Source: Ectobius pallidus
Lineage: Eukaryota > Arthropoda > Insecta > Blattodea > Ectobiidae
Length of the DNA stretch: 64,000 nt
Direction of reading: 5' to 3'
Assembly: GCA_964059195.1 (NCBI GenBank)
Contig: CAXKWD010000009.1
Coordinates: 150,717,890 to 150,781,889, forward strand
Part shown: piece after piece, positions 3,735-44,500 of the stretch
Numbering within the stretch: the stretch's first letter is position 1
How the letters are laid out: each line of letters opens with the position of its first letter
Program-made: the position numbers and the translations under genes
Notes under the pieces: generated by a model
Databases searched by the model: none
Told to the model about the DNA's origin: nothing
Seen by the model: the letters and a program-made list of their open reading frames with translations, nothing else

Positions 3735-6700
3735 CTGTGAGCAAATAGGAAAATGTTAGAATGTGACCAACTGCCAATTGTAAAGAGTTCCTTCACCTGC
3801 TACTAGATGGCAGGTGTAGGGTTAGGATGAGAATGATTTGATAACGAGATTTGAATTTTTTTTTTAAAGTAACACAGAAACAGCTGATTTCATATTTGCA
3901 TTTTGCAGTTTTTTAGATATAGCCTATTTTACACAGCTTTTTTGCATTTTTGTCTGTTAAGAGCATTTGTAAATAATTTTGTGCAGAAATCCCCAATAAT
4001 ACAAGGGAGAATCGAATGAAAACCACAATTAATTTTTTTTCACTATTTTTCTGCAGGAAGAATCTTTGCTTGTACATAGTCCCCTCCCAGTTCAATGCAC
4101 TTACGCCATCAGATAGGAAGTGCTTCGATACCACATGAAAAAAATTATTCTGGTTGACACTGTAGGCACTCATGCACCGCCAATTGGACGTCTTCATCAG
4201 TCTTGAACTTCTGCCCTCCAAGGAGATCCTTTAATGGACTAAAGATGTGAAAATCTGATGGTGCCAAACCTGACATATATGGCAGATGTGGGAGGCACTT
4301 GAAGCATATGTCGTCAATGGTTTTCATGGTTGCACAAGCAGCATGAGTACGGGCGTTATGTTGAAGCAAAACACCTGCTCTAAGCAACCCCCTTCGCTTT
4401 GTCACCATCAGATTTCTAAATCTTTGGTCTGTTAAAGGATCACCTTGGAGGGCAGAAGTTCAAATCTGATGAAGACGTTCAATAGATGGTGCAGAAGTGG
4501 CTACAGTGTCAACCAAAATAATTTTTCTCATGCAATATCGAAGCTCTTCCTATCTAATGGCGTAAGTGCATTGAACTGGGAGGAGACTATGTAGAAAAAT
4601 AATGTACAAGCAAACATTTTTCCTGCAGTAAAATAGTGGGGAAAAAATTAATTGAGGTTTTCATTTGATTACTCCCTTGTAATATAACTTTGTGTTTTTT
4701 TATTTATTTCTTTTGATATCTTTGCTATTAAAATCCGCTTTTCAACACATTTTAACCATTTCTTCCACCCCGGTCCATAAAGTGTTTATCGTCTACTACA
4801 ATTCAAAGTAAACTAATACCAGTAATTAACAAAAGCAAGCTGCATGAATTAAAATTAGTGTTTACTGCAAGTTTTATTCCTTAAAAATACCAACAAAAAA
4901 TGGCAAAATTGTTGACGTAATTAAATAAAGATTTTGAAAAACATAATGAAACAACTTTAAAAAAATCAGATGGGAATATGTAACGAAGTTCCGCCTTAAC
5001 CTTTAACCCTTAACACACAACTTATCTTGATTCACTCAAAAACAGCATAATTATAAAGATGTAGATGAAAGCTGGATTCTTCTGTGTGGAACCAAGATGC
5101 GTCACTACTTAAAAAGAATAGGCCTATGCATTTCGGTGATTTTTATGCGCCATCTTCAATTCGTAGAATTGTGGTGTTCAATACAGCTCATCAGAACTGA
5201 AGATGGCGTAGCAAATACGCCGAAATGCATTTTCTATTTAAATAATGACACATCTTGGATCCACACAGAAGATTCCAGCTTTCATCTACATCTTTATATG
5301 TTGTTTTTGAGTGGATCAAGATAAGTTGTGAGTTAAGTGTTAAGGGTTAAGGCGGAACTTTGTTACATATTTAATATTATAACCCTTATCTGATGGAAAT
5401 GAAATATTTTAATCAGATGGGAAACTTCCTCTGCCCTGAAGGATACATGAATGAATGAATGAATGAATAAGCCTTATTTGTCATAACCCAAATAAAATCT
5501 GATTAATGTACTCGCGTAACTTTCTCTACCCTAAGCATGGCCAACAAGACATCTTTCTCACTTCACATTCTTATATAGAGTAAGATGCCATGAAAGAGCG
5601 CGTATTCGGTCGTTTAAAGCATGTTACAAAGCTTTACTGTTCACCAGACATGACCGAGTTTAACAGTGGGTGGCTTATAATTACCCTTCAGAGATTTTTT
5701 TCAAAGAAAAAAAAATTCAAATAAAAGTTTTAGCCCATGTACAAAATTTAAAGAAAATTGTTAGATCAGTTTTCGAATAAAATACCCCCCCAAAAAACGA
5801 AATTGTCCTCATGTGAAGCCCTCCGTAAAATAACAGAAAGTTGTCGCCAATCTACATGTCATATCCTCAGAAGGTACCTAACCCAAGCACAAAATGTTTT
5901 CATATGATGTACCGACCTGGAGGTAGCCTGTTCTCACACACAGACGTGTTTCTGAAAATAGTATTTTTGGATTTATGTATAGCGTAGAGCTTTATCACTG
6001 GTACTCACTACTAAATTGCGGTATTTTGTTACCTGTTGGAGCGCTTTCAACCGCATGGAGCGGCCATCTTCAGCAACTGACTTCCGTTGTGTTGTTGTTG
6101 GGAAGACATTTCTGGATAACTGTATCGTACAGCGCGTGCACGCGCTGTACGATACAGTTATCCAGAAATGTCTTCCCAACAACAACAACAACAACACAAC
6201 GGAAGTCAGTTGCTGAAGATGGCCGCTCCATGCGGTTGAAAGCGCTCCAACAGGTAACAAAATACCGCAATTTAGTAGTGAGTACCAGTGATAAAGCTTT
6301 ACGCTATACATAAATCATTAAGATTATCGCTACAGAATGGACAAAACTCAAGTATTTTTGGATTCAGGGCACCTCAAAGAGTGCTACTTTTTTTACCCAT
6401 AGTACCTATGGTACGGGCAGAGGAAGTAAAAGTATATGAAATCTAGCAACACTTTCACCAAAAATAGGTTTAAAATCAGGACTGATACGTTTTCAGTTTT
6501 AGGTTCCCCCTTTGCATGTGTTCTGTTAACTTGGTACTAGGAACTTAAAAATCTAAAAAATTTCCTTTACAAGAAATGGAGATGGAAAATCAACAGCTGC
6601 CGATCAGTTGTACTGTGATGGATAATGCGCTTTCCTTTTTGGCAGTTGGACACAACATACAGAAATAGCACTACAGAAGTAATCAACACTCAAACTAAAG

Positions 6701-12700: not shown

Positions 12701-15700
12701 ATGATATTATCTAATCCTATCTGTAACTAATATATCAAGTTTAGATCCTTTTCGGGATCTACATCCTTTTTTATCATTATTAGCTCATAAGTTTATTGAT
12801 TATAATTATTTATACTATTACATTCCGAACTTATATTTTCATTAATTGTTTTTATCTCTGTATGTGTTTTATGATGTGTATTACTGATTGTACTCTTCTG
12901 TAATGTTAACTCTACTAATTTATTGTATTTCCCACACTGCCTATTTTTGTACTTTAACTTGGTTCATTGGGACCTTTAAGTGAATAAATAAATAAAAATA
13001 AATAGGTGTTAATAAATATAATGATTTAACTATTATGCTCTCAATTTTTAATTTTTAACTTTTTAAATAATTATCGCAGGCAAAGCCGCGGGCACCTGCT
13101 AGTAATTAAATATAAGGAGCTGTAACAATTGCTGTCTGGAATATAAATACTCTTCAACTTGCATTTTAGAATTTTCAGGGAGTATATAAATGCTTTTATT
13201 TTATTTTGTATTTAACTAAATATGAATGTTATTTTATTACGTAATTATTTTCGGAAAAAAAAATAAAAGAAAGACCAAAGTACCACCTGATCGGCATAAA
13301 GAGGGAAACGGGAGTGTCTCGAGTATCCACCACAATGGCGCCGTGTTTGTTTACAAGATGGACCACGCTGCTGCTGTGGAGAAAGTTCCGAGAGGAGAAA
13401 GTCCTCCACACACTTTCGCTGCCTGCTGTCCCTCTGGGGCTCGCGACGCAGTATCAGTAGGGCGTGGGTTCGAACCCGGGCCGGCACAAGAAATGTTAAA
13501 TGGCCCCCTCCCAGAAGCTTGATTCACACCCTCATCGAAAACAATTTGTAATTGCCTTTACTTATAGACCAGCAGGTGCCCGCGATGACTTACTCAAATG
13601 TTCATAAATATAATGTTATAATTATTTTTCTGTTAAATAAATGATCTTGAAACCATAAAACATAGAACATATTTAAATAAGATGTTCAGTTATCTAAAAA
13701 TAAGTTACACATAGGTTTTTTTTATTTTTTAAATACTGTATGTACATATACCGGCGTGGTCTTCTGGTTAGATCCGTCGGCCCGGGTTCGATCCCCAGTA
13801 CCTCCTCGGATTTTTCTGAGGAAGGGAGGTCTGGAAGGGATGCATTCAGCCTCGAGATTCAAATTGAGGAGCTACTTGATAGAGAAGTACTATGCCGTGG
13901 GTGTCGGCATGCTGACCACATGCCCCCCAATACTGCCTATGGTAGATGACGCAGCGGTCGGGTGGTAGGTCTTGTCCCTTCAGGGATGTTAGCGCCACGG
14001 AGTTAGTTCGTTATTTTTTAACACTTACATTGTTTTTACATAAATTGAAAGAGTTACATAATTTATTCTTAATTATATTGTTTTACGCAATAAATATAAA
14101 TAATTAAACGAACAAAATTAATCTTATGCTGGCAAAAGGGCATACAAATTCAAAATGAAACTATTAAAATGAACCATAGATTCATGAACCTTGCCCAAAT
14201 CATGCATAAGCAATGAAAATGACTGATAACTAAAAAAAGCTAAAATCCCGGCTTCGAGACGTATTTCACGATCAAAGTGCGCCGCTCGGGGAAAAACGAT
14301 CTCAGATTCGAGTTTTCTAGTAAAAAAAACCGCATAGTGGGTTTCGTCCAAATCATTCCCGTGTTTTCCCATCTAGGCATGCATCAATGATCCCCTTCCA
14401 CGTGATGGTATAAACAAACGAACAAGCTGAGCGGATCGACAAATTTTGATGTCTGGAAAAAGAAGATTTAAGCGATGCTCTTTCTTTCCCGGTCGCTATG
14501 GCAGCAGAGCAAAGCCACCTACGATTAATTCTACAACAATGGTACTTCCATAGCGCAACAAATCATGTTTTCTGCCATTAAAACTCCTAAGTAGAGAACG
14601 GAAGCTAAAATTAAAAATTCTGCTTCGAGGTGCATTCAGTCCATCCATGTTAAATGGGCCTAATGAGTAATGACTGTGGCGATGGCTCAATAGCAGTATA
14701 CAACCCTCGTTAAATAACCACGACAAACAAAATTAAGTGTAAAGTCCCAGTGACATTGAAAATTAATCCTAACGCAATTTCATGTTTCACTCGGCCTGCT
14801 CGTTCTTTAATTTTAATCTTCTTTTTGTAATTGGTTACTGCCTCACCCCCCAAAGTAAAGATTAACCCTCCACTCAATGTTTGTCTTATTCCCCTCACTC
14901 CTTCGCTCCTGAATCTGGAACCTAACTGTGTTAATAGATTAATGCTTAAAGGCCATACTTTTGACATCAAACCGATACGAGTCGGACTCATCCAAGGACA
15001 AGTCCAGACATTCGTTGTGACGCACGCCTTCCAGCCACTGATAGAAATGCTTCCTGGGTAATGGGTACTTACCCGCTATGATGACTATCCAGAAACACCA
15101 GCCCAGTCGGAACTGCAGGGCGCTGTCCTCGAACCGAACCACGAGGGGGTTCACTGGGATGAGCATGAAGTAGACGAGATCCGTGCTGAGCAGGAGACAG
15201 CCCGTGAGGATCATGGCGTAGGCCCCGTAGCGCGGGACCACCACCAACAATAGGTTCATGAGCAGCCACGTGGCGAACGAAGCCCTGTCAACACACACAA
15301 ACTCCCTTAGTGACGTAGTCTATGGAAAATACTCTTTATGATTGTTAAATAGACTCAATTTGATAAAAATTGTTAAAATTCATTACTTTTTAAAATGTTA
15401 AATTTCTGACTGTCGTAAAAATCATCACACTTGGTGGTTGAAAAGCTTGCCGTCTCCATTCCTTATGTTGGGAGCCATGAAAAATGTACAGGATCAAACT
15501 TGTAGGAAATTTTATGAGCTTGAATTTTGAATAGAGTAACTTGTTGAGATATAAGCGCCCCTGCCCCCGCTCACCCCTCATCCTCAGGACAGTGCTGCAT
15601 TATCGCAAAACTAACAAAATATGCAACAATGGTCTATGCAAAATGAATCCATTTTCATGAATTGTACACATTTTAACACTAGAATGTAATAGAGTGCATT

Positions 15701-18985: not shown

Positions 18986-20280
18986 AAATGAATGCTTGGC
19001 GGCCACGCTCTGTTAACTCAACATGGCGGCGGCGCGCAATTTATTTTGAAAGAAAGGTCAATTCGTGACATGGCGTAAGACAGGAATGTACAAAGCCACC
19101 TACGTTACAAACTTCTACCGAAAGTAATTCATTTGTTTTCAGTTTTCAGTGAACGAATAGAAGGCAGTGGAGAACTATGTCCTTAAGATGCCTCATAACA
19201 AGCAATAAAATCGTACGAAACGTGTGTCTGATGAAATTCATTTTTAAAAATAATTATTGATGATTAATGCATATTGAACTATCCTGAAGGTGATAACTGT
19301 ATTTCTGCAATGTTTAATTTGTGTGTATTTCATTTGTATTTATATGGATTTCTGTATTTCATTACAGAATGCTATAAGTTGCTATACGTGAGTGTAGTTA
19401 TGTTTGGAGACTTTCAGAAATTGTTGAGGAGAGAGAAAATAGTGCCTCTGTTGAACATTACATGATAATTTTTTATAGGAGAAACATTCTTCTGACACTG
19501 GGATTTGAACCCAGGCCCATTTGCTATCCGTGCCACTGCTCTACCAACTGAGCTAAGCCAGAGTCCCAGTGTCAGAGGAATTTTTCTCCTATAAAAAATA
19601 CTAAAAATACAACAATAATAAAAAAAATGTCATGAAGATAACGATTACACATTGCTGTAGTTAAAGGTATACACGGTATGTCGTCTGCATATACCGTCTG
19701 TTTTGATTTCGTGTTATTTATGTGCCCTTTGATCTATTTTTTAAATATATGGGATTGAGGTTTGGGGATGTGCTGCAAAGGTGCATATGAATAAGCTAAG
19801 AAATGTGTTAGAATTATTAGTGATTTAAAATGTAAGGAATCTTGTAGAACTGCGTTCAAGAAACAAAACATGCTAACAGTGTACTCATTGTATGTTTATA
19901 GAGCAGTACAGAAATCTAACAAAAAATAGTGAAATTCATAATTATAGCACAAGAAGTAGCTTAGATTATCATAGATATACATGCAAAAAGCAAATTATAT
20001 TTAAGGACGTAAGTGTAATTGGAACTATACTATACAACAAGCTACCTGTAGAAATTAAGAATGCTGACAAGAAAATTTTCAAAACACTTCTGAAGAAATA
20101 CTTAATAGAAAAATGTTTATATTCTTTAGACGAATTGTAATAACTGATTAGCACATATACATTATTATATTTTGATCAATCACACACTTTTATCCTTAGA
20201 TCTAGGTTGTAGAAATTAGCTCTTAGACTGTAAGCTTGACAATGTCAGAAACTTGTATCAAGTCAATTGACAGCAAATAA

Positions 20281-23300: not shown

Positions 23301-26300
23301 TATGTGGGTTCGCTCTTAAAATGTTTCAGTGTGTTGTCATTGTTAATATTAGAGGGAATAAGGAGGAAAAAAAAAACATTTATTCATTGTGCAGCGAGCC
23401 TATAATAGCGTTTTTTAAGACACGAGTATTTTTATGAAACGAGCAAAGCGACATTCATAATTATAGGCAAGTTGCATACAACTGTTTTTGTTCTACCATA
23501 ATTAATTGTTTTAAGTTTTGAGTTTCACCGAACAGTGGCGTACGAAGGGGGGGGGGGGTGCGAACGGGGCGGCCGCAAAAATTGAAAAACAACTGTTTTT
23601 AGTTTAAGAAAAAATAATTTTACTCGGGCAAAATATAAGGTTTTATTGGTCAAATTTTCTTTATTACTTTGTTAAATACTGCAGTAATATTATTTAGAAA
23701 TGAAATAAACGATTCCTTTTAAACTATTTATAGACAATACGAAATAGGTCGTGGGCGTCGAGCACACAGGAAAAGTTTACGGTGTAATTTAGCAATTTTA
23801 TCAATTGAACGTGATCTATTATAAATAAGTTTGCATCCATCAAGGCTAGGAAGGCACATTTTTACATTTTTCTTATGACTCTGAAACTTCTTTTCTCATT
23901 TTTTTTTCAAACAAACTAACCTTATAATACAGTTTTATTAAGTGCCAGTATGGTACTTTATGAGATTGTGTGGTGGACGAAAAAATGTCTGTCCGTCTGT
24001 CTGTCCGTGTGTCTGTACGCACCATAACTCAAATACGCTTTTTCGGATTTTCATGAAACTTGGAAAACACATTTATAATGTCCATGGGAAGAACCCTATT
24101 GATATTGAACCAAATCGGTTCACTGGTACCGGAGTAATGCCCAATTTAGTGCCTCTTTTAATAGATTATACGCTGTATCGGATTTCCATGAAACTTGGTA
24201 TACCCATTTATGACGTCCATGAGAAGTCACTCACTCACTCACTGGCTTTACGGCCCTTCTAGGGCCAGTGCCTGCCGAACTATTGAAGCCCACAACTTCC
24301 TGTCCTGTGTCTTTCTTCTCCAACACCTAACTCCCAATTCTTTAATATCCTCCTCCACCGCTTCCATCCATCTCTTTCTTGGTCTTCCTACATTTCTTCT
24401 CCCGCCAGGTTTTCCTTTATATATCCTTTTTAATAATGACTCCTCTTCACTTCTCTCTACATGTCCTAACCATCTCAGTCTGGAACTTTTTATTTCACCT
24501 ATTATCTGTGGTTTACCATATTTCTCGTAAATTTCTTTATTATTTCTTACTCTCCATTCACCATCCTCACAGACAGGTCCATACATTCTCCTCAATATCT
24601 TCCTTTCCCATGCCGCAATCTGTCTCTCGTTTTCCTTTGACATACTCCATGTTTCGGAGGCATACATTACTACTGGCCGTATCACCGTTCTGTAGATTCT
24701 CTCTTTCCCCCTTACTGATAATTCTTTGGCTTTCATTACATTTAATAATGCTCCATAGCATCTATTGCCGGCCTTAATTCTTTCTTGTATTTCTTTTCCA
24801 ACATCATTATCTTCTGTGATAATTGTGCCAAGATATTTATAGCTTCTAACTCTCTCAAATTTGTGCCTTCCTATCTGAATATTATCTACCAAATTCCATT
24901 TGTCCTGGTTTCTTGATGTTATCAAGTATTTAGTTTTAATTTCATTGATTTCCAGTCCCATTTCCTTACCTTCCCGTTCTAGTTCCCGAAAGCTTGTCTG
25001 CAGATCCTGTCTTGACCTACTAATTATAACCACGTCATCTGCAAAAGCCAATATCTGGATCATTCTATTGTGGATTGTACCATTTGGATTAAGATTTATT
25101 TTGCTGATCACTCTCTCTAATACTATATTACACAATATGGTCGAGAGGGGGTCCCCTTGCTTTACCCCTCTATTAATTTCGAAATCTTCTGTTAGTTCTC
25201 CTTGTATTGCTATTTTGCCTTTGGTTTTAGTAAGGGTCATTTGTATCAGCCTAATTAGTTTCCTTGGTACATGGAACTGTAATAGTGTTTCCATTATTGC
25301 CTTCCTGTTCAGGCTATCGTAGGCTTGTTTAAAGTCTATAAATAGCCAGTGGAGGTCAATGTTAAATTCATAGTATTTCTCTAGTGTCCATGAGAAGTGC
25401 CCTATTGAATTTGAACCTAATCTGTTGACCGGTACCGGAGTAAAACCCAATTTAGTGTCTACTTTAAAGGCGCAATAACTCAAATGCGCTTTATCGGATA
25501 TTTATGAAACTTCGTATACGCATTTATAATGTCCATGGGAAGATGTTTATTGATATTGGACCAATAAACCAATATTGATACCGGAATAATGCCCAATTTA
25601 GTGTTTTTATGTTAATATATAAGAAGTCGCGATAACTCAAATATGCTTTATTGGATTTTCCTGAAATTTTGTATACCCATTTATAATGTACGTGGAAAGA
25701 CGTCTACTGATATTGGACCAAATCGGTAGACCGGTACCGGAGTAAAACCCAATTTAGTGTATATTTTAAAGACGCGGTAACTCAAATACGCTTTACCGGA
25801 TTTTTATGAAACTTGGTATACACATTTATAATGTCCATGGGAAGAGTCTATTCATAATGGATAAAATCGGTTGACCTGTTTCGGAGTAATGCTCAATTTA
25901 GTGCCTATTTTATGGTAATATACGTATTCGAAAGAATTTATAAAAAAAAATGAAAATCAGTTATCTTGACAACATAGCCTATTGTTTTACTGTGAACTTA
26001 TAAGGCCTTGGAAATTAAAATACAGGTAGCTATGACAAAAAACACTATTGTTTTACATGCGCTTATCCAACTAGACCGTTAAAATGACCCAGGTGGCCGA
26101 GATGGTAGACCTTTCTTCATCCGTAAGCCCTGCTTAATGAATAAATCTGGAGCTTAACTTGGAAATCAATTTAAAAAAAAACACATTCTGCATATCATAA
26201 TTGCAGTCATAACTGATTAAACAAAAACATACTGGCACTTTGTTACATCAGTTTACCTGATTTTATTTCATTAATATTTTTCTCTTTATAATATGTTAAA

Positions 26301-33800: not shown

Positions 33801-36800
33801 TGAACCCTATAACTAGACCTGGGATTTTAAGGCAAATGCCTATTTTGTTGCTTATAAAATAACACGAAAATGTTTAAATATGTTGACATTTCATGATAAA
33901 TCACTTACATTTGTGGAGTTTTATAGTGCCCTAAAATGCCTATTTGGACCTTTGGAGCCTATTTTTACTCTTTTAGTGCATAAAATGCCTATTTTATACA
34001 TTAAAATAAAATTCAACTTCTGTAATTTTTACAATCTCATAATGGACATCCCTCAATGAAAAGCAGAACAGCAGAGGTGGGTTTTTCACAGAAACTTGAT
34101 TATTCCAAACAATTGTCGCTAAAGGACTGGCGGGGGAGGATTAAGGGGGAAGGACTACCGTCTCAACTCACCAGTGAAAGAACATCTGTTTAAGTGAATA
34201 TAGTTCGTGATACCTAATTTTGTAGTTACTTCTGTTAAGAATAGGTATACCACATTTCTTGCAGTAAAAAAAAAACCATGTTACTATTTAAGTGTGTATT
34301 GTAATATTTTAAAGTCTATTTTCTATCTATTTACACATTTTTAAAGCATATTTTAAGTGCCTATTTTCTCTTTTAAAAGCCTATTTACTTGTTTTAAAAC
34401 CTATTTTACGTGCCTAAAACTAATTTTTTTAGAGCCTAAAATCCCAGGTCAAACTATAACACAGCCCAACAAAAATAACTTTTTGTTTGGTGTCTCAGAT
34501 GTTTTACCAGTGTGCTTATTCAAAATATGTAAACAGTTTTTCTCTACCAGCTCAACTCTTATATAGATTTTATTCGTGAACTCTTAGTCTAGCGAAACAA
34601 AATCTTGATTGATAATATAGCCAGTGAAGGTTCTTGACCATACTTTGAACACGTAAGACGAAAACTAAAAGCTGGATTATTTTTTGGCCCTCAAATTGAC
34701 AGCTCATAAGTCATAAACGACCGTACAATATGTGATAATATCAATTTTTGAAAGACCCCATGTTATATTGTTATTGTAATGTTAATGTAATGTTAGTGTG
34801 TTGCTTTTTTCTTCGTGATTTAGAAGCTAAAAATTGTTACTGTTTTTTACTTATATCAAACGTAAAATGGAATAATATGCATACTGGTAATACCATATCT
34901 CAAAATCTAAAGCTGATAGGGCAAAACTAATGGCACATTTGGCATCAGCGACCTAAATATACCCAAGAAGAGGTATAAATTCTAAGGCACCAAAATGGCT
35001 GTTGGGCTGTGTAATATTCTCATGTAATGTCCAACAGAGACAAAATCTGTGGTTCGTGAATGCATATATATCCATCTTGAATGTTACTGTACAATAACAG
35101 TGGAAGCTTCACAGTACTGCATATGACATAACTTGTCTGTCTGTGAAGTAGACCTTTAAAGGCAGTCAGGGGAGGTTCCATCTGGCCCTGTGAAGTGAAC
35201 TCTGGCTTAGCTCAGTTGGTAGAGAGGCGGCACGGGTAGCTAGAGGTCCTGGGTTCAAATCCCAGTGTCAGAGGAATTTTTCTCCTATAATATTTTCATA
35301 TAACACCATATTTATCATGTGTTTTCTAAGCATATTTTTCTTAATTTGTAAAGAACCTAATGAAAGTCTGAAGATTTCATAAGACGAAATTATTTTTAAA
35401 AAATACTACAAGTGCTAGAGAAGAAATCCTGCAATATGTTGTTCATATACAGGGGTGACCAACTTGTTTACTTATGACGTGCTTTGACGTCACAAATGAA
35501 TAACATGTTGTTGATATTCTTAACAAGTCCTGAAGATGGGCATAGGTCATTCTGTTTCTTTGTGAAGCAATTCTTCAAAACTATCCAATATAGAATCATA
35601 AACAAACTATAAATGTTTTAAATTTTATTAATCGCTTTATTTGCGGGTGGTGGGCCACTTGAGGCCTATGGGCCGCCAGTTGGGCTCCTCTGTTGTAAAT
35701 GTTGTACAAGACAAACAACAAACGTACCATTTGTCCTAGTCCCCCCGGATTTGCTTTAATCTCCCTGGATTTACAATTTTACGCATCTTTCTCAAACCTT
35801 AAATAGAAAAATCATCTTTGTGATTTTAGTACCGTAGTTCTGTCAACAGAGCCTAGGTCCAAAAATTCTAACATCTTCTGTTCCTCAGTTAAAACGGTCG
35901 CTATCTTGATATAAAATTAAAAAATAAAAATCCTGACGCATACGTCGGTTTTAATTACTGCAAGGAACATTTTCACAAAATTGGAAGAAAACCGAGCAAG
36001 GATTTTGGTAGTGGATACGTATCAATCTCTATAAATATAAAAGGCTTTGTCCTGACTGACTGACAGGAATCAACGTAGAGCCTAAACTATAACAGGTAGG
36101 GACTTGGAATTTTGACAGTACCTTCGTTTCATAACGTAGGTGCTCATTAAGAAAGGATATTGAAAAATTTTGATTTTAAATGCCAAAAAATTATATGTTT
36201 TTGAGAATACTTAATCCCTTTTTACACAGAATTATCAAATCCAAATCACAGAACATATTGTTGCCACTGGTATCAGATGGGTTTAGAAAAAATGAAATGC
36301 AAGTTTGACAAATAAGAGAAGTTATCAATATAATTCATGTTATAAATAAATATCACAGAATGAAATCCCAAAAAATAATGAAGTCACATAACTTTCTCTA
36401 CCCTGGACATAGAGAAAACATAACGAGGTATGGAAATGTGTATATTATTATATCGCAGGTTTTTGGAGAGAGAAGTATGAAAGTGATATTACATTTCTGT
36501 TTAGTTTCATCACCAAAACAGTTTTATGGTAACATGAGAGTGAGAAATAAAATTTTCCGCCTCGATATTACAATTTTATGTTACAGGAATTTCTGTTTCT
36601 TCTTATTTGAACCTCTACCAGGCTACCTGTGCACTGTACAAGCGATGGGATGCAAAATTCCACATCTTCTGTGAGCCATAAAAAACTATATCAAGCGTTT
36701 TCTGAGGGAATAGTTTGAGTGTGATAAGTCATTCTTCCTCATTTCAAATTCTAAATACCTATAAAAGGACCTAGAATTTTAAAATGGAAACTCCTTCATA

Positions 36801-41590: not shown

Positions 41591-44500
41591 GCACACTATT
41601 TACATCATATTTTTAAATTAATATAGCTATAATTTCAGATAGATTCCCTCAGCCATTTCATAATTACGGGTGGGACATTCTAGCAGAATACGACAATTAG
41701 TTTTGTTTATTACATATCATGAATAATTAATTAGAACTCTTATTTTACTCATAACAAAACTATCATTATTACGGGTGGGACAAAAAGTTGTTGTTTGTTA
41801 TTTTACATAGTAAAGTAAAGTAAGTAAAGTGTCCCCTATTACAGGCCATGGAGGCCCAGAGGGTTCCAGGAGGTTGAGGCTCCCAGATTTTTAGACATCG
41901 GCACATGAAGGTGGTAAGGTTGTCAGCCTTACGCACCGGCCGCCTTTACTCCCAGGATTGCTCCTGATACTCATTTCTGTTAGAGGTTGAGTCCACCCCA
42001 GGGCCTTAGTGCCACCAGAAGGATTAGGCCAATTGAAAAACTCCAACGACCTCATCGGGGATCGAACCCGCGACCTTCCGGTTTGTAGCTCAGCGCCTCA
42101 ACCACTACGCTACGGCGTACCCCCTGTTATTTTACATAGTAGGCCTAATTAACCACACATACTTTTTGAAGTTAATCTTATACCAAATTGTGCCTTAGGA
42201 TGTATATTTTATCAAATCAAAATGGACATAGCTGATTACTCTTGACTACCTGGTATTAAAAAGTGTTAAAATCATGCTAAAAATGGCAAAAAAAGTAACT
42301 CAACACAATAAATAAGTAAATCAACAGATTTTACACGTGAAACCACTTCAGATACACCTAAGTCCTTAATATTCAGAGAATTTGAGGTTTTAAACTTATA
42401 TTTGACCACCCAATTACAATAATTTTATAACTTCTCTCTTTGAGGGAAAAATTCCCATATTTTATGAAATGGCTGCCCTGGTACAACTAAAATAAGACGT
42501 GACAAAATGAAATTTACAAACATCTGACTGCACTGTAATCAGCACCCTCTCTATTCAATATGAAGAATGGAATCAACCAGAGTTGACGAATTTCCGTTAC
42601 ACGCTGTTTTAGCAGGTGACCCCCTCCGATAAGACCTATTTTAAAAATAATTTTAAATTTATCTTTTCAGAGCGAAGCTTAGACCAAAGGACGGAATTGG
42701 TACTTTCGATGGACACAAAATTTCAAGTACCTGAATTTATAAGTCAGGTCGTGACTGAGCCCGCTTTTTAATTCTTCAAAAGGGCGCCAAATATTCAGTT
42801 AAGAATATTAAGATTACGAAGATGGTCAACTACTTATGATTTTTTTTTTTTACTTCATTAAAAATTATCTTGACTGACTGACTGGGGCAGGTTCCCATGA
42901 GAGGACAGGTGATAAGCCCATCGCCTCATAAGCCCCCTCAGGAAACTAAGGCATTACTTGACTGTGAAAGGACCGAGGGAAAAATTACTTGAGCGTACTA
43001 TATTTACATTCGGGGGTACGCCGTAGCGTAGTGGTTGAGGCGCTGCGCTACAAACCGGAAGGTCGCGGGTTTAATTCCAGATAAGGTCGTTGGAGTTTTT
43101 CAATTGGCCTAATCCTTCTGGTGGCACTATTGCCCTGGGGTCGACTCAGCCTCTAACAGAAATGAGTACCAGGAGTAATCCTGGGGGTAAAGGCGGTCGG
43201 TGCGTAAGGTTGACAACCTTACCACCTTCATGTGCCGATGTAAAAAAATTCGGATGCCTCAACCTCCTGGAACCCTCTGGGCCTCCATGGCTTGTAATAG
43301 GGAACACTTTTTACTTTTTACTTCCTCTGCCCGTACCATAGGTACTATAGGTAGAGGAAGTATTGTTTTCGACCCTAAAATTCGAAGTTGAGTTTTTAGC
43401 ATATATAGGTACACGTTTCAAGGCCCCCTGAATCCAAAAATACTATTTTTGGAAACATGTCTGTGTGTCTGTGTGTGTGTGTGTGTGTCTGTCTGTTCGT
43501 GTGGAAGTTTGTGAACAGGCTAGCTCCGAAACGGAGAATCGTATGAAAACAAAATTTCGTATTTGGGTCAGGTACCTTCTGAAGATGTGATTCGAAGATT
43601 GGCGACAAATTTCCCTTATTTTTAAGGGGACTTTACATGAAGAAATTATCGTTTTTCGCGATTTTCTCAAAAACGGCTCTAACGATTTTCTTTAAATTTT
43701 GCGCATGGATTGCTTGTACCAAGAGCTAAAACTTTTATTTGAAACATTTTTTCGAACCAATTCTCTGAAGGGTAGTTATAAGCAACCCACTGTGAATACG
43801 TGCTTTTTGCAATACGGCTTCTTGTAAATCGTACGAAAACAAAATTTTGTATTTGGGTTAGGTACCTTCTGAGGCTGTGAAGATTGACTACAACCTTTTC
43901 TTATATTTAAGGGGACTTTACATGAAGAATATTTTGTTTTTTGCTATTTTCTCATAAACGGCTCTAAAAATTTCCTTTAAATTTTGTACATGGATTGCTT
44001 ATACCATTTCAAAAACATTCTCTGAAAGGTGGTTGTAACCTACCAACTTGCCTGGTGAACAACTCAATACGCGGATATTTAAGGCATTTTATTCTATATA
44101 AGCAGGTGAAGAGAGAAAAATGTACTGGTGGCCCTGCTTACAGTAAAGAAATGTCTGAGGGGAATGTTTGATAAATTTAGGAAATTATTCTTAACAGCAG
44201 AAAGTTCAATAAACGTTTGCAGTCACTTGTTTTTTTTCCCATAGCCTGCGTTTTTAGTCGCAACATTCAAAGAAGGGGCTATATAGCATAATTAGCGTAA
44301 ATGCTGCAAACTTTTATTTGGGCAGAGGAAGTTATGTGACTTTCACATCAGATTTTTTATATTTACATTCAGTATACATCGCTACATGGAGATTCGCCTT
44401 GGCCTAGTTGGTAGATCCGGAAGGACACGGGTTCGCTCACCGACAAGATCATTGGGATTTTTCAATTGGCTGTAAGAGGAAAGGGTGGAATTTGTAACAG

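Follow-up and report, generated by a model that had tools for sequence, protein, structure and literature searches.

We analyzed a 64,000-nt stretch of the Ectobius pallidus genome (hereafter the window) and found in it two hairpin-shaped palindromic insertions with a one-sided tail, insert 1 (4977-5410) and insert 2 (5974-6350), which very probably represent insertions of pLTR sequence alone, arranged head to head, from two distinct families of endonuclease-bearing Penelope-like elements (PLEs). Elsewhere in the same genome, sequence related to PLE reverse transcriptases (RTs) is linked to the pLTR of family 1, a GIY-YIG endonuclease lies at the ORF end, both families have the PLE arrangement of direct or inverted pLTRs with an optional tail of 30-40 bp, and target site duplications (TSDs) flank the elements in the window as well as copies of either family. 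Judged from these sequence features, the foldbacks fit RT-less by-products of RT-bearing elements.

Architecture of the two insertions

The initial annotation had described two foldbacks with TATGTA/TACATA ends, a tail of 38/41 nt, flanking duplications of 13/14 bp and a hammerhead-like motif, and all of these features were found again (Table 1). In both inserts the outer TATGTA pairs with TACATA, and the unpaired tail follows to the right. Since the palindrome pairing of insert 2 extends to 5970 and 6316, four bases further out on each side, and since GATT precedes TATGTA in all six other family-2 foldbacks that were read, the left end of insert 2 may lie at 5970, with a TSD of 10 bp and a tail of about 34 nt. 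The pairing of insert 1 likewise reaches 4975 and 5371.

Table 1. Features of the two insertions, in window coordinates
Feature	Position	Strand	Remarks
Left TSD, insert 1	4964..4976	.	13 bp, exact copy of 5411-5423
Inverted pLTR arm, insert 1	4977..5162	-	tail-less; hammerhead motif degenerate
Hammerhead-like motif, insert 1	5193..5235	+	stem I AGAA/TTCT, core CTGAAGA, extra T, stem II of 6 bp, GAA, ATGCAT, H=T
Forward pLTR arm, insert 1	5194..5369	+	TACATA end is site 1; copies elsewhere in the same genome
Tail, insert 1	5370..5410	+	41 nt between sites 1 and 2
Right TSD, insert 1	5411..5423	.	13 bp
Left TSD, insert 2	5960..5973	.	read as 14 bp; 10 bp should GATT (5970-5973) be part of the element
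Inverted pLTR arm, insert 2	5974..6138	-	from palindrome pairing
Hammerhead-like motif, inverted arm of insert 2	6035..6077	-	from strict motif scan
Forward pLTR arm, insert 2	6139..6312	+	right-half copies match from query 165 (window 6138) at 99%
Hammerhead-like motif, insert 2	6209..6251	+	stem I GTTG/CAAC, core CTGAAGA, extra T, stem II of 6 bp, GAA, AGCGCT, H=C
Tail, insert 2	6313..6350	+	38 nt as read; about 34 nt if the palindrome ends at 6316
Right TSD, insert 2	6351..6364	.	matches 5960-5973

The two arms of insert 2 differ by one substitution and one 9-nt indel in a CAA repeat, and those of insert 1 are 11.8% apart over their aligned part. Apart from the shared layout, the two inserts have little in common, the best local match between their right arms being 11 nt within the hammerhead core, and sequence comparison found no further copy of either insert elsewhere in the 64-kb window. 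That the inserts hold no RT, as had been annotated, was confirmed by comparison with 120 PLE proteins, none of which matched in the window (E <= 0.01), and therefore no PLE gene was seen there. A reading frame of insert 2, used as a protein query, returned 10 candidates, none of them significant.

Several other features were recorded in the window. On the minus strand lie a 417-aa reverse transcriptase fragment (24248-25501; RVT_1, E 1.2e-25) that was unmatched by the PLE proteins and an exon of a dual oxidase maturation factor (14939-15319; DuoxA, E 2.4e-22), a gene of animals. An inverted repeat without hammerhead motif is located upstream of insert 1 (4070-4596; arms of 199 nt, 87% identity, 129 nt apart), the longest inverted repeat listed spans 41813-43323 (arms of 312 nt, 91% identity, 887 nt apart), and two tRNA or tRNA-like matches at the Rfam gathering score were found at 19490-19562 (-) and 35201-35273 (+).

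Family 1 copies grade from pLTR-only foldbacks to RT-bearing copies

Searching the 2.12-Gb genome with insert 1 gave 1820 first-look candidates, of which the best 40 were scored (114 matches), and 31 of these best 40 loci match query positions ~190-434, comprising forward arm, hammerhead and tail, at 91-95%. Copies of both families were ranked by likeness to the queries, and the shares of forms reported here therefore describe this sample rather than the population. Thirty family-1 loci, corresponding to 24 distinct places, were fetched with 1.5-kb flanks and compared with a PLE protein set gathered with a probe sequence. In 6/30 loci (L053, L054, L060, L065, L067 and L068; best E 7.7e-36), PLE proteins match RT/GIY-YIG sequence upstream of the pLTR.

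In the extended regions L069-L074, the RT-to-endonuclease sequence ends ~0.1-0.3 kb before the pLTR. The Pfam cut-off for GIY-YIG (22.6 bits) is exceeded by the pieces of L070 (23.1) and L073 (29.5), two of the three from family 1 that were tried, while the third (L069:6869-7564) matched no Pfam family; a 256-residue family-1 piece has 12 relatives, one of which is annotated as a GIY-YIG protein of Phthorimaea operculella. The PLE coding pieces that were read are mostly cut short or carry stops, with no intact ORF among them, and an ORF start was found for neither family. A second, different PLE GIY-YIG domain adjoins the family-1 element in L069 (4318-4527, +).

Among the 39 other scored loci, 29 distinct tail-bearing copies were recognized: 22 show the outer end of an inverted arm, the inverted arm is absent in 6, and its outer end is missing in 1. 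The inverted arm ends at pLTR 201-220 in 22/22 and the forward arm at the tail end, an asymmetry to be read with the selection of elements for a tail-bearing arm and with the requirement that inverted arms reach position 195. TSDs of 12-17 bp with at most one mismatch beat the best of 2000 mispaired controls in 8/22 elements, and in the remaining 14/22, with narrow scan windows, no TSD rose above all controls.

Where spacers are present between the arms, they represent 3' sequence of the same PLE, truncated at differing positions (for example in L072, L074, L075, L076, L085 and L086). Family-1 copies form a graded series, with pLTR-only foldbacks at one end and copies whose arms enclose RT/endonuclease sequence at the other.

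Family 2 foldbacks meet at the pLTR 5' boundary

The insert 2 query yielded 866 candidates, and the best 40 were again scored. These best 40 loci comprise 24 full foldbacks, the one in the window included, at 88-100% identity, and 16 loci with right half and tail, which match at 99% and start at the apex; an inverted partner lies at a distance in 4/16 of the latter. All three right-half loci that were fetched (of 16) have a GIY-YIG-like PLE ORF end ~140 nt upstream of the pLTR (L095-L097; E 1.7e-16 and 2.6e-13, with a weak match of 8e-4 in L096), and two of these family-2 pieces reach 19.6 and 21.2 bits with the GIY-YIG Pfam family, just under the 22.6 cut-off. In family 2 the coding part that was read is the ORF end. 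The description of the inserts as inverted Penelope-like units thus stands, with RT/GIY-YIG sequence (family 1) or a GIY-YIG ORF end (family 2) located 0.1-0.3 kb upstream of the pLTR.

Exact TSDs flank 6/6 of the family-2 foldbacks read (of 23 others), 11 bp long in five and 12 bp in one; the six are all different, and 42 mispaired controls reach 6 at most. A narrower first scan had recovered 1/6, and the wider offsets were applied after the shared GATT had been noticed. According to the TSD-scan offsets, the tails of the six foldbacks measure 35-47 nt.

The right arms of seven family-2 copies differ at 0-5 of ~197 positions, and six distinct apices were found among the same seven copies. The halves meet at the pLTR 5' boundary, and the apices coincide with the switch from ORF-side sequence to pLTR in the ORF-linked copies. 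Six apices in seven copies suggest new formation at each insertion, with reverse transcription running from two internal starts towards an RNA 5' end. Alternatively, the variety of apices could stem from later revision, since the centre of a hairpin can change once it has been inserted.

Proposed insertion mechanism and evidence from the junctions

PLE membership, the two end sites, the TSDs, the head-to-head order and the junctions can be read from the sequence itself. From them we infer a scheme of staggered cutting, strand assignment, RNA 5' end and joining. A PLE protein would cut both target strands with a stagger of roughly 10-17 nt. Downstream of the hammerhead motif, reverse transcription would have two internal starting points on the RNA, 35-47 nt from one another, such that one target strand would receive cDNA from site 1 and the other strand cDNA from site 2. 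Each cDNA would extend in the direction of the RNA 5' end, in family 2 as far as the pLTR 5' boundary, which would be expected of an RNA starting at that point, and in family 1 to varied stopping points. The two 5' ends would then be joined head to head, either by fold-back of one cDNA or by the joining of two. A purified lizard PLE protein cuts and extends both strands and starts reverse transcription inside its RNA at two sites, and the genomic 'tail' of the lizard PLE is the stretch between the two start sites (PMC11167929). We give about an even chance to both strands being primed from the two sites here, and the evidence on dual-strand priming versus fold-back is mixed.

Fold-back, or self-priming, in which a single cDNA primed at site 2 turns back at its 3' end and is copied in the direction of site 1, so that both arms come from one molecule, we rate at somewhat below even. 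In the available text of PMC3846280, self-priming is inferred from junction palindromes in Penelope families. In 16/20 arm pairs (19 elements), no more than roughly a quarter of all other arms resemble an arm more closely than its partner does, and two independent cDNAs are therefore unneeded in most elements. Hairpins of 13-26 bp were found at 5/17 family-1 junctions (control 99% = 8), and the seven family-2 apices read are near-perfect palindromes. The tail-bearing arm is the longer one in 17/19 junctions, once by only 2 nt, as fold-back would have it, but this bias is confounded by the choice of query, which favours long tail-bearing arms. Moreover, 12/17 family-1 junctions, that of insert 1 (6 bp) included, show no stem beyond chance, the stem test covering 17 of 19 junctions with L074 and L083 omitted for their large overlaps. 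In insert 1, with its arm divergence of 11.8%, 100%/83% of the other arms lie nearer than the partner does, and L085 behaves alike, so that two templates seem to be needed in these elements; fold-back also leaves the fixed stop at site 1 unexplained.

It appears improbable that the foldbacks constitute an independent non-autonomous family, in which the foldback itself would be transcribed and copied as a unit and mobilised by PLE proteins. The abundance of the same full-length foldback among the best 40 family-2 loci and the close likeness of the seven right arms would agree with such a family, although the scored loci had been ranked by likeness to a foldback query. The variety of apices speaks against it, later revision of the centres aside, as does the continuous grading of family 1 into RT-bearing copies. 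The structure-only class of retroelements put forward in the initial annotation is not supported, on these same grounds, namely the grading of family-1 copies into RT-bearing ones and the differing apices of the family-2 foldbacks. We thus retain the reading of the foldbacks as products of RT-bearing PLEs, formed by dual-strand priming or by fold-back.

A hammerhead-like motif is shared by the two families

The motif is built of stem I (4 bp), an extra T, stem II (6 bp, closed by a loop of 5 nt), GAA, a 6-mer palindrome and H, and thereby has the CTGANGA...GAA core, stems I and II and the U-H17 site of minimal type I hammerheads. A strict scan of the window found it at 5197 (+), 6213 (+) and 6073 (-) only, all inside the inserts; a looser scan added two weak window sites, at scores that the simulation equals. 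All 12/12 stem pairs are standard in insert 1 as well as in insert 2, although 8 of them have both partners exchanged between the inserts, a covariation that was matched by 2/500 shuffles, and the pairing was lost when the partners were slid. The CTGANGA core is kept in 27/30 family-1 arms (hand count). In intact family-1 motifs stem II mostly has 4 bp; that of insert 1 and of one further motif has 6 bp. In family 2, both arms of six other foldbacks read carry the motif, with stem I of only 3 bp in L094. Uncompensated changes are also present among the family-1 copies.

We consider it quite unlikely that the hammerhead likeness is a chance by-product with no ribozyme behind it. The curated hammerhead models of Rfam gave no match to the motif of either insert, the monomer fold of insert 2 was no better than those of shuffles (z +0.36) and that of insert 1 only mildly better (z -1.52), and the uncompensated changes in family 1 point in the same direction. 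By contrast, the motif with a stem I of at least 3 bp occurred in 0 of 300 simulated 64-kb windows (in 1 without the stem I demand), two families share the core and the doubly changed stems, and minimal hammerheads are described in PLE pLTRs in the available text of PMC7761336 and PMC6155905. The motif may trim the RNA as a dimer, and its action would not be required for insertion.

The ATG that overlaps the hammerhead core was considered as an ORF start and is not supported in these copies: its frame is closed in both families, by a stop after codon 12 in nearly all of the 30 family-1 arms and after codon 6 in insert 2. Therefore, the lizard layout, with an ORF from stem II, is not reproduced here.

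Hammerhead-like motifs with the same extra T and a full stem III were also observed in contigs of a viral collection (L021, L023, L024, L026, L027, L031 and L032), and in our reading they are probably hammerheads; Rfam, run on 10 of 16 viral-collection loci, reported 0 hammerheads. When viral contigs were scanned for PLE-type hammerheads, the matches were read as phage-type or chance only, and a pattern scan of bacterial genomes for the same type gave 0. The PLE protein profile picked out 13 stretches in viral contigs, none of which was confirmed, and among 69 stretches in genome contigs gave 1 weak match.

Comparison with known elements

As far as the available text of PMC3846280 goes, the Penelope families of Adineta vaga share with the present elements the head-to-head inverted pLTRs, the TSDs, the palindromes at the inverted junction, the RT and GIY-YIG upstream of the 3' pLTR, and an optional 3' tail, which measures 31 bp in Adineta vaga; solo pLTRs and inserts between pLTRs are also mentioned there for Penelope families. 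Unlike in those families, many copies here are reduced to two pLTR arms, the hammerhead-ATG frame is closed, and the TSDs are 11-17 bp as read, against 8-10 in Adineta vaga. Similar to the Anolis Poseidon element PAc, the tail fits the stretch between two RT starts, with the hammerhead shortly upstream (PMC11167929). In PAc, however, the ORF runs from stem II and the RT starts lie 111-118 nt into it (PMC11167929), whereas here the ATG frame is closed, and the tail of insert 2 ends 132 nt, that of insert 1 208 nt, past the ATG.

The motif resembles the minimal type I PLE hammerheads of Cervera and de la Pena (2014) and Lunse et al. (2017), as papers citing them describe these, in its pLTR location, its short or missing stem III and its expected action as a dimer; from these descriptions it appears to differ in the additional T that separates the core from stem II. 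Metazoan retrozymes are likewise non-coding and hammerhead-bearing, with a proposed dependence on PLE enzymes, but they have repeats of ~150-300 bp between hammerheads and circular RNAs in the available text of PMC7761336, whereas the present elements are head-to-head palindromes with a tail, whose repeats are inverted rather than direct and tandem. Foldback DNA transposons of the FB, Galileo or Mutator type also have long inverted repeats and duplications, but this identity is scarcely credible here, given the one-sided tail at a fixed site in place of symmetrical inverted ends, the differing duplication lengths and the RT/GIY-YIG sequence upstream of the arm. A literature search, which covered few subscription papers and in part only portions of the sources, brought up PLEs that have tails and hammerheads and whose pLTRs are inverted, and no description of abundant pLTR-only foldbacks of this kind.

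Chromosomal position and significance

On the eleven large contigs, with contig ends taken as chromosome ends, 13/24 family-2 foldbacks are located no more than 5 Mb from a contig end, where 5.8% would be expected, a pattern noticed post hoc; the same distance holds for 3/16 family-2 right halves and 1/40 family-1 loci. We tentatively suggest, with clearly less than even confidence, that pLTR-only foldbacks may be a main product of these PLEs, reverse transcription running from the 5'-proximal start on both strands to the RNA 5' end and leaving a fresh ribozyme-bearing hairpin at each insertion, and that the concentration of one family near chromosome ends might reflect a terminal preference of a telomerase relative.

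How PLEs make inverted copies, and what role the hammerheads play, is left open in PMC11167929 and in the available text of PMC3846280 and PMC7761336. Each minimal foldback would record where the target was cut, along with two candidate RT start sites and one candidate RNA 5' end. The many minimal foldbacks in this one genome would therefore provide a natural data set for weighing dual-strand priming against fold-back, for which no working element is needed.
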